This document shows, one piece after another, positions 3,159 through 6,431 of a DNA stretch of 64,000 nucleotides (its first letter is position 1; each line of letters starts with the position of its first letter). Origin of the DNA: Nitrososphaeraceae archaeon (GTDB lineage: Archaea; Thermoproteota; Nitrososphaeria; Nitrososphaerales; Nitrososphaeraceae); NCBI GenBank assembly GCA_031316115.1, contig JALDRC010000001.1, forward strand, positions 372,001 to 436,000, in the 5' to 3' direction. The notes under the pieces are model-generated. The model was given only the letters and a program-made list of their open reading frames with translations. It ran no database searches and was not told where the DNA came from. Made by a program: the position numbers and the translations under genes.

Positions 3159-5945
3159 ATGCTTCAAGGAAATAGAGTATTATTTAGTACTAGGACTTTT
3201 AATTTTCAAGTAAAACATTTGCTTGTGATTGCTGTTTTGATTATAGCATTTTCTACTGCATTTATAATTAGAACATATCCTATCAAGTATGGATTCGTTC
3301 TAAATGAATTTGATCCTTATTTCGATTATCGTGCAACCAAATATATAATAGATAATGGGTTTTTCGAATACTTACATTGGCACGATGACATGTCTTGGTA
3401 TCCAGAAGGCAGGGATGTACCTAAATCATCTCAAGTTGGTCTTCATATCACGGCAGCTGTGCTTTATAAGCTATTTGGTTTTGGAGCTCCCCTACAAGAT
3501 TTTACAATAATGTTTCCAGTGGTGATAGGATCTCTTACTACTATCATTATTTTTGCTCTAGTAAGAACTATAAGCAGTACAACTGCCGGAATGTTTGCAA
3601 GTCTTATATTTGCTTTTATGCCTGCAATAATACAAAGAGGTAACCTTGGATGGTTTAAATCTGAACCTTTGGGGTTATTTTTTGGAACTCTCTCCATCTA
3701 TCTTTTCCTGTCAGCAATAAAAGACAATAATCTACGACGTACAGTTTTAAAGGTCATAGGGGCAGGAATAATCTTAGGTTTAGCAAACGCTTCATGGGGT
3801 GGAGTTCAATACTTTTGCATTCCATTGGGGATCTTTTTCTTTGTATTACCGTTTATTAGGAAAGATTCCAAGACGATAATTTATGCAGTACTAGTTTTTA
3901 CATTAGTGACCTTAATAACTGCAGGTGCTTTTCCAAGACCCGGAATATCATTTGTTATTGGACTACCAGGGATAGCGTTAATGATTGGAGCGTTGTTTTG
4001 TGTTATAGGCAATATAGTTCGGATCAAAAGCAAGCAAAGAAAAGTTAATCGTAATTTATTTATCAGTTTTACAATATTTATTCTAGTCTCCGGTACCATA
4101 ATAGCTGCTGGAGCATATCAACCATCATCTTTTAGATATTTGAATGCGATAAACCCGTTCTTATCTTCTCAAAACCCTCTTGTAGAATCAGTTGCAGAAC
4201 ACTCAACGCCTACGATAGTAGATTATTTTACTGATTATTCTATTTTGTTGATATTCGCTGGATTCGGAGCGTTTATTGCGTTTACGAAAAGAACTGATAT
4301 GTCATTATTTGCTTTAATAATTGGATTAACTGGATTGTATGTAAGTGCTACCTTCGCTAGATTAATGGTATTCTCTTCCATTTCAATATCAATTCTAGCC
4401 TCTATAGGATTTTATGAAATAACCAGAAGTATACTCCAAAATAAAATTCAAAGTCATGGACAATTAAGTGAAAAAGAATTTCAAAAGAAGATCAAACGAG
4501 GGAAAATTTTACCGGGGGTTAAATCTCTCGTAAAAATATCCTACATTGTAGGAATTATATTTTTGATATCGATACCTTTGATAGATAATCAAGGTATAAT
4601 TTATCCAAAGAATTTCAATTGGATTAGCTCTGCAGATATTCCTCCTTCAATAGCAAATGGAGCAACAGGATTCAGAGTACAGGTTGACGACTGGTTTGAT
4701 GCTCTTGATTGGATAGAAAAAAACACTCCCGATGATTCAGTTATAGCTTCATGGTGGGATTATGGATATTGGATTACAACTCTAGGAAATAGAACCACAT
4801 TGGCAGATAATGCTACTATAAATCAAACCAGAATTCAAACAATAGCAAAGATGTTGATGAGTGAACCCGAAACTGGGATCAAGATCAGTCAAGACTTGAA
4901 AACAGATTATATATTGATCTATATAGTAGCTGACAGGCATCAAGGTCCAGATGGCAACGCCTTCTATACACTTGGAAGCGGAGGAGATGAAAGCAAAAAA
5001 CAATGGTTCATGAGAATTGGAGGATTTAATGAGAAAGATTATGTTGAGGATGATGGATTTACCCCTAATCCTAATTTCTGGAACAATACATTGTTAGGAA
5101 AGTTAATACCTTATTCACCAATTTCATATGCATCAGTCAATAATGGAATGTTGGCAAATTTACAGCCAGAATATTCTTCTGGAACTATTGCTATTAATGC
5201 TAAAGACATCAAATTTCCAAATAACGGAACGAAAGAACAACCACTTAAATTAGTTTATTCATCACCTAGTTTTGAAAACAACCAAGATGACATTGTTTTT
5301 GGTGTGTTATTATACGAAGTTAATAAAAATTATAAACCAAAACCTTTTACAATGGAACAAAAAAATAATATCGACTTAAATCAAAACAAAGAATCAAATA
5401 CTGTGGAAGAAAATCCTGAGGAGATGATAAAAACAAATATGACACCCTCAAAAGAATTGGCTACTCTTGAAACTACAAAAGGAAATATAACTCTTGAATT
5501 CTTTCCCTATGCAGCACCTAAACATGTTGAAAGCTTCTTAAATTTAGCAAAAAGTGGTTTCTATGATGGTACAATTTTTCATAGAATCGTCAAAGATTTT
5601 GTAATACAAGGGGGAGATCCAAATACAAAACTAGGTGAGTATCAAAGAGAAAAGTGGGGTACTGGAGGTCCTAATTTTACATTAAATGCCGAATTTAACG
5701 ATATACCACATAAAAAAGGAATACTATCAATGGCAAGAACTTCAGATCCCGATAGTGCAGGTTCTCAATTTTTCATTGTCACAAGGGATTCACAGTTTCT
5801 AGACAATCAATATACAGTTTTTGGACGAGTAATTGATGGTTTAGACATAGTTGACAATATAGCCTCAGAAAGCACAAATCAAAATGACCAACCAACAAAT
5901 CCAGAGGATGCAAGGATCACAAAAGTAATAATTAAAGACAGATAG
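3159..5945 (+). CDS. aglB: STT3/AglB oligosaccharyltransferase with C-terminal cyclophilin-type peptidyl-prolyl isomerase domain
   Basis: Multi-TM N-terminus, WWDYGYW catalytic motif, then a cyclophilin domain (GTIFHRIVKDFVIQGGDP, AGSQFFIVT, YTVFGRVIDGLDIVDNI). Confidence 0.92.
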   Translation: MLQGNRVLFSTRTFNFQVKHLLVIAVLIIAFSTAFIIRTYPIKYGFVLNEFDPYFDYRATKYIIDNGFFEYLHWHDDMSWYPEGRDVPKSSQVGLHITAAVLYKLFGFGAPLQDFTIMFPVVIGSLTTIIIFALVRTISSTTAGMFASLIFAFMPAIIQRGNLGWFKSEPLGLFFGTLSIYLFLSAIKDNNLRRTVLKVIGAGIILGLANASWGGVQYFCIPLGIFFFVLPFIRKDSKTIIYAVLVFTLVTLITAGAFPRPGISFVIGLPGIALMIGALFCVIGNIVRIKSKQRKVNRNLFISFTIFILVSGTIIAAGAYQPSSFRYLNAINPFLSSQNPLVESVAEHSTPTIVDYFTDYSILLIFAGFGAFIAFTKRTDMSLFALIIGLTGLYVSATFARLMVFSSISISILASIGFYEITRSILQNKIQSHGQLSEKEFQKKIKRGKILPGVKSLVKISYIVGIIFLISIPLIDNQGIIYPKNFNWISSADIPPSIANGATGFRVQVDDWFDALDWIEKNTPDDSVIASWWDYGYWITTLGNRTTLADNATINQTRIQTIAKMLMSEPETGIKISQDLKTDYILIYIVADRHQGPDGNAFYTLGSGGDESKKQWFMRIGGFNEKDYVEDDGFTPNPNFWNNTLLGKLIPYSPISYASVNNGMLANLQPEYSSGTIAINAKDIKFPNNGTKEQPLKLVYSSPSFENNQDDIVFGVLLYEVNKNYKPKPFTMEQKNNIDLNQNKESNTVEENPEEMIKTNMTPSKELATLETTKGNITLEFFPYAAPKHVESFLNLAKSGFYDGTIFHRIVKDFVIQGGDPNTKLGEYQREKWGTGGPNFTLNAEFNDIPHKKGILSMARTSDPDSAGSQFFIVTRDSQFLDNQYTVFGRVIDGLDIVDNIASESTNQNDQPTNPEDARITKVIIKDR

Positions 5946-6017
5946 ATAAATTCTAACCTAATTTGTTTGTATTATGTTACAAGATTATTAATAGGATTTA
6001 ATAGGTATAAAACATTG

Positions 6018-6431
6018 ATGAATGAATTAGAAAAATTGTTATTACTTCCCAACAGAAAAATAATTGTCGCACTTAATGAAATCAATCTAAGAGAAACCTT
6101 TGAAAATAAAGTTTTTTTATTTATGATTGAAGAATCAAGAGGTGCAGCTGGGGGAAGAGGAGGAGGTTCTGGTCATAGAAAAATCGCAAGAATAACAGGA
6201 GTGACCTGTGAATTTGATGGTACAAAAAAAATATTTGATTCAATAGATCAAGAGATAATTAATAAATTTGAGATTCCATATAGTGCTGTAGCTATGGATA
6301 TTAAATTATCAGAGGGGAATGACTACGTAGTTCAGGGAATTATTGATCCCGCCCTGATCGAAAGTTATGAGAACGTAATCAAAAATTGTAGTAACACGAA
6401 AGGCTTAAACAATGGAATAGGGAATGAATAA
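6018..6431 (+). CDS. Hypothetical protein with Gly-rich loop
   Basis: Open frame; internal ATG at 6018 (MNELEKLLLL...) is the likelier start than 5967. Co-directional with topoVI genes. Confidence 0.55.
   Translation: MNELEKLLLLPNRKIIVALNEINLRETFENKVFLFMIEESRGAAGGRGGGSGHRKIARITGVTCEFDGTKKIFDSIDQEIINKFEIPYSAVAMDIKLSEGNDYVVQGIIDPALIESYENVIKNCSNTKGLNNGIGNE

Follow-up and report, generated by a model that had tools for sequence, protein, structure and literature searches.

A single open reading frame in the window, the 64,000-nucleotide stretch of DNA analysed here, encodes an STT3/AglB oligosaccharyltransferase (aa 1–721), a linker (aa 722–765) and a complete cyclophilin (aa 766–928). In our best explanation, to which we give a probability of about 0.55, the protein is the only oligosaccharyltransferase of the organism, a single-subunit STT3 with a flexibly tethered, probably active cyclophilin that serves as a folding helper. 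The STT3 part would transfer the lipid-linked glycan to Asn-X-Ser/Thr of proteins as they emerge on the outer side of the membrane. The cyclophilin would bind the same chains and isomerise their X-Pro bonds, with the outcome that acceptor segments would remain accessible or would fold promptly once modified. We infer the isomerase activity, its substrates and a benefit of proximity for glycosylation or folding.

Overall architecture of the fusion protein

The reading frame starts with ATG and has no internal stop codon, in line with the uninterrupted 928-aa frame described in an earlier, sequence-only reading of this DNA. Pfam, AlphaFold2 and Foldseek agree on the fusion of STT3 to a complete cyclophilin that was proposed there. 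The AlphaFold2 model of the whole protein, built from 53 sequences, has a mean pLDDT of 83.4 and passes from the membrane core through an outer domain ending at aa 721 and a disordered linker to a confident cyclophilin beginning at aa 766 (Table 1). The first cyclophilin codon lies at 5454, so that the start given earlier (about 5453) is correct to the codon.

Table 1. Features of the STT3–cyclophilin fusion gene in the window
Feature	Position (nt)	Strand	Residues and remarks	Basis
Whole fusion gene	3159–5945	+	928 aa plus stop	Full-length relatives exist
STT3 membrane core	3210–4583	+	aa 18–475; 13 hydrophobic segments	Pfam, AlphaFold2 model
First acidic motif, LNEFDPYFD	3300–3326	+	aa 48–56; D52 at nt 3312–3314	
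Second motif, GWFKSEP	3648–3668	+	aa 164–170; Lys167 at the Asp site of human STT3A YDNE	
STT3 outer domain	4620–5321	+	aa 488–721	AlphaFold2 model, Pfam core match
Sequon-binding motif, WWDYG	4752–4766	+	aa 532–536	Invariant in 53 rows
Flexible linker	5322–5453	+	aa 722–765	AlphaFold2 pLDDT below 50 at aa 732–758
Cyclophilin domain	5454–5942	+	aa 766–928	Pfam, AlphaFold2 model, Foldseek
Catalytic stretch, FHRIVKDFVIQ	5577–5609	+	aa 807–817	Conserved over 71 fused domains
GSQFF motif	5760–5774	+	aa 868–872; Gln870, Phe872	

The hydrophobic segments are as many as expected for an STT3, and the last of them spans aa 457–475. Following the established STT3 architecture, everything after this thirteenth segment is predicted to face the outside of the membrane. 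The extracytoplasmic placement of the isomerase that had been suggested from the sequence is thus well supported by the order of the segments, the folded outer domain up to about aa 721, the linker and the cyclophilin.

The stretch 5340–5460, singled out earlier as the place where a frameshift or an assembly join might lie, contains no frameshift and falls within the linker. It is extremely improbable that an assembly or sequencing artefact joined two genes, because the same junction recurs, in diverged sequences, across dozens of independently assembled genomes that include single-contig ones. Nothing at the window locus speaks for such an origin, although one relative (L088) holds a frameshift-split version of the gene. 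The recurrence of the junction rules out an artefact as the source of the fusion.

By its named relatives, the source genome groups with the ammonia-oxidising Nitrososphaeraceae. It yielded one STT3 match and one cyclophilin match, both inside this reading frame. FKBP and parvulin genes are present elsewhere in the genome, and the fused cyclophilin is therefore not its sole prolyl isomerase.

The surroundings of the gene were also inspected. Upstream, two deoxyhypusine synthase genes stand divergently back to back (510–1589 on the minus strand and 1686–2621 on the plus strand), and the pair is retained beside STT3 in several relatives. Directly downstream lies a 154-aa reading frame with a TTG start (5967–6431, plus strand) and no Pfam match; the four closest relatives (L053–L056) have it at the corresponding position, and L065 has it apart from STT3.

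The STT3 portion and its metal site

Like human STT3A (6s7o), yeast STT3 (6c26) and A. fulgidus AglB (3wak), the N-terminal part of the protein combines the 13-helix membrane core and C-terminal outer domain of the STT3/AglB family with the EFDP, SVSEH-type (here SVAEH) and WWDYG motifs. It differs from these enzymes in its additional C-terminal cyclophilin and in a lysine at the Asp of the second motif. Pfam matches STT3 at aa 25–412 (E 1.8e-26) and the STT3/PglB/AglB core at aa 526–576 (E 1.2e-5). The best sequence match of the STT3 part (3210–5321) is human/eukaryotic STT3A (E 3.2e-67), and this part is far closer by sequence to eukaryotic STT3A/B than to the solved euryarchaeal AglB. Foldseek ranked STT3A, STT3B and yeast STT3 first for the model of the fusion, followed by A. 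fulgidus AglB and PglB.

The acidic metal-binding residues Asp52, Glu169 and Glu347 are retained, and L48, E50, F51, D52 and P53 of the first acidic motif are invariant in the STT3 alignment (53 rows). In the second acidic motif, on the other hand, every Nitrososphaeria row examined has lysine (Lys167 in the window) in place of the first Asp, whereas 14 of the 15 other Thermoproteota rows have Asp at this site. These Nitrososphaeria rows read FKSE, as compared to FDDE or YDNE in human STT3A and most of the other Thermoproteota, and the lysine is common to fused proteins, unfused proteins and the class outgroups. This class-wide lysine, at a site where other STT3s have a metal-binding Asp, stands against our best explanation.

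The linker and the cyclophilin domain

Over the fused relatives the linker varies from 10 to 101 aa in length (median 38) and is poorly conserved in sequence. A linker of this long, flexible and poorly conserved kind implies that no fixed geometry couples the transferase and isomerase sites. The linkers hold 4.99 sequons per 100 aa as compared to 3.37 in shuffled sequences of the same composition, and the linker in the window has one; we rejected the sequons as a strong signature of the linker since the excess is modest.

The Pfam cyclophilin match covers aa 769–922 (E 1.6e-49; model positions 3–156 of 159), the cyclophilin blocks were modelled with pLDDT values mostly between 75 and 96, and Foldseek matched the C-terminal part of the model to solved cyclophilins. 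The cyclophilin fold, whose loss in a model would have spoken against the fusion, is thus retained and complete. In fold and active-site residues the domain is like PPIL1 (2x7k) and E. coli cyclophilin B (1j2a); unlike them, it forms the covalent C-terminus of a membrane glycosyltransferase.

The catalytic Arg/Phe/Gln pattern noticed earlier was recovered as Arg809, Phe814, Gln817, Gln870, Phe872 and Leu881, all conserved in the fused relatives. We take Arg809, Phe814, Gln817, Gln870 and Phe872 to be R55, F60, Q63, Q111 and F113 of CypA. Across the 71 distinct fused proteins that we extracted, there is no variation at the sites matching CypA R55, A101, Q111, L122 and H126 (Tyr here) and next to none at those matching F60, Q63 and F113. 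Conservation is 0.95 in the active site as compared to 0.68 in the rest of the domain, a value reached by one of 10,000 random position sets. The near-invariance of the active-site residues makes it likely that the fused domain works as an isomerase on the outer side of the membrane, and it argues that catalysis is under selection. In Nitrosotalea relatives, SSQFF replaces GSQFF; a dead cyclophilin in these species was considered and rejected, since the alignment shows that the catalytic Arg and Gln are kept.

The retention of all six core catalytic residues in 67 of the 71 domains makes improbable a purely binding role of the cyclophilin, in which it would act without catalysis as a module that recruits the translocon, ribosome-side factors or substrates. 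Such a module would resemble FKBP11, for which an adaptor role beside OST-A has been proposed (PMC12804085). FKBP11 likewise belongs to a prolyl isomerase family and adjoins OST-A at the secretory translocon of human cells (9n9j). Its ligand site is buried in the human structure, and the authors argue that it does not isomerise prolines of the nascent chain there (PMC12804085), which weighs against our best explanation. However, FKBP11 has the FKBP fold and is a separate ribosome-bound protein, whereas the isomerase in the window is a cyclophilin within the STT3 chain.

Distribution of the fusion

The full fusion was found in at least 82 of the 301 genomes of the class, a count that leaves out several genomes in which the locus is broken off at contig ends. 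It occurs in 36 of the 45 genomes of the window's family, in all 12 of genus code g20 and in 24 of the 27 of g38; ten further fused genomes come from nine additional genera, with two in g34. A single-contig genome of 2.53 Mb (genus code g12; G028, locus L045) encodes a fusion of the same 928 aa. The fusion is thus common to much of the ammonia-oxidising lineage and is not peculiar to the source genome.

In a named set of 80 loci, 34 are fused, 41 are unfused, a number that includes the frameshift-split L088 and the fragmented L121 and L129, and five are cut. The fused names include Nitrososphaera, Nitrosocosmicus, Nitrosotalea and Nitrosotenuis, and the unfused ones Nitrosopumilus, Nitrosopelagicus, Cenarchaeum and Nitrosopolaris. 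Most Nitrososphaeraceae and the Nitrosotalea- and Nitrosotenuis-type genera therefore have the fusion, which was not found in marine Nitrosopumilus/Nitrosopelagicus. Among the matches listed for 250 genomes of the phylum, no STT3 outside the order runs on into a cyclophilin, and the listed genomes of the class outside the order lack any cyclophilin. In the flanks of unfused STT3 genes (up to 6 kb), no separate cyclophilin gene was found except in L088.

Some ammonia-oxidiser relatives, most of them more than 90% complete, gave no STT3 match: five genomes of genus code g13 (G037, G053, G134, G150 and G203) and three of g45 (G170, G188 and G306). Genus g13 also lacks any cyclophilin where searched.

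One gain or several

The fused proteins are 46% identical between families, so that the fusion has been retained over a long divergence. In many fused and unfused relatives alike, the genes for S6e and eIF2gamma lie upstream of STT3, which identifies the locus as the same one. In the STT3 tree, which was built by a quick method and has some weak nodes, the fusion is missing from the outgroups and present in the branches nearest the root of the ammonia-oxidising clade. The fusion label requires 11 changes on this tree, part of which are due to truncated or frameshifted contigs. On the simplest rooted reading, which fits this tree, the fusion would have arisen once at the base of the ammonia-oxidising lineage and then been lost several times. 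In two Nitrosopolaris-type proteins, a tail of about 85 aa that resembles the linker and bears sequons is kept and no cyclophilin follows it, which looks like cyclophilin loss.

In the cyclophilin tree, the fused domains are split among three groups and interspersed with stand-alone cyclophilins, as would be expected if two or three related cyclophilins had been fused to STT3 independently, a matter that concerns history and not function. We regard independent fusions as possible but doubtful, since the deep nodes of the cyclophilin tree are weak, a single clade of fused cyclophilins is not rejected (p-AU 0.128) and every basal branch of the lineage is fused on the STT3 tree.

Anchor or functional partner

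The main rival to our best explanation holds that STT3 is merely a membrane anchor and that the cyclophilin is a general extracytoplasmic foldase with no functional tie to glycosylation. The long flexible linkers are consistent with it, as are the other carriers of cyclophilin domains in the lineage. In most Nitrosopumilaceae, a secreted protein of about 515 aa carries a cyclophilin, then a PsbP-like domain and a hydrophobic region at its C-terminus (L169:902–2446, plus strand; similar in L050, L052, L163, L168 and L202). Although they are extracytoplasmic cyclophilins of the same lineage, these proteins have no transferase and form a separate branch of the cyclophilin tree. Meanwhile, the Nitrosocosmicus-like genus g2 has a second cyclophilin (L051:578–2029, plus strand; also L021) that is near-identical to the STT3-fused one and sits on an unrelated secreted N-terminal part. 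Cyclophilin domains thus attach to different carriers. Against a mere anchor, the partner over a large part of the lineage is the same single-copy STT3, and translocated chains presumably reach STT3 early, so that the site would not be arbitrary. Overall, we consider the anchor somewhat unlikely.

Two side observations concern these carriers. The near-identity of the g2 pair suggests domain copying or gene conversion. In one Nitrosopumilaceae genome, a secreted cyclophilin shares its chain with a DsbA-like thioredoxin and a glucose/sorbosone dehydrogenase domain (L170:1892–4600, plus strand).

The folding helper of our best explanation is also challenged by the marine groups and the Nitrosopolaris-type species, which have lost the cyclophilin and keep STT3; there are therefore species in which the transferase does without the coupling. 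The link between N-glycosylation and prolyl isomerisation that the sequence-only reading proposed is plausible. We regard as possible, though less likely than not, the stronger version, in which a built-in isomerase would actively shape acceptors for glycosylation and would have been acquired a single time when the lineage arose and later discarded by marine groups.

Discussion

Sequons have to be in an extended form for the transferase to act on them, and how folding is coordinated with N-glycosylation is a long-standing question; in eukaryotes, separate subunits are involved. MAGT1/TUSC3 hold acceptors open for STT3B through cysteines (PMC7563561) and, together with FKBP11 beside OST-A, set a precedent for folding factors stationed at the transferase. 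These proteins and Ost3/Ost6 likewise place a folding-related enzyme domain beside STT3 outside the membrane (PMC7563561), but theirs is a thioredoxin fold on a separate subunit, whereas the protein in the window has a prolyl isomerase in one chain. The fused cyclophilin may work like the Ost3/MAGT1 accessory subunits without being a member of that family; no thioredoxin family is among the Pfam matches of the fusion protein.

In Nitrososphaera viennensis, N-glycans are present on the S-layer protein and on multicopper oxidases, and the product of the single aglB gene was detected (PMC12153357). For Np. piranensis, the same study found little AglB and did not find N-glycosylation (PMC12153357). 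Two species establish no correlation. That study does not mention any cyclophilin, and a survey of archaeal prolyl isomerases (PMC8530231) notes multi-domain cyclophilins with no transferase fusion in its main text. We found no description of an STT3–cyclophilin fusion in the open-access papers searched. Both domains are thus known, and their covalent union is apparently undescribed in that literature, though domain databases may already display the architecture.

The fusion places a prolyl isomerase covalently within the oligosaccharyltransferase of abundant archaea, in which naturally fused and unfused relatives are available for comparison. Since it is fused in soil and groundwater lineages and unfused in marine Nitrosopumilus, of which one studied species has no detectable N-glycosylation, the question of coupling is testable. 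If the stronger version of our reading is true, the fusion would let these archaea solve with one protein the problem of substrate folding for which eukaryotes use separate OST and translocon subunits.
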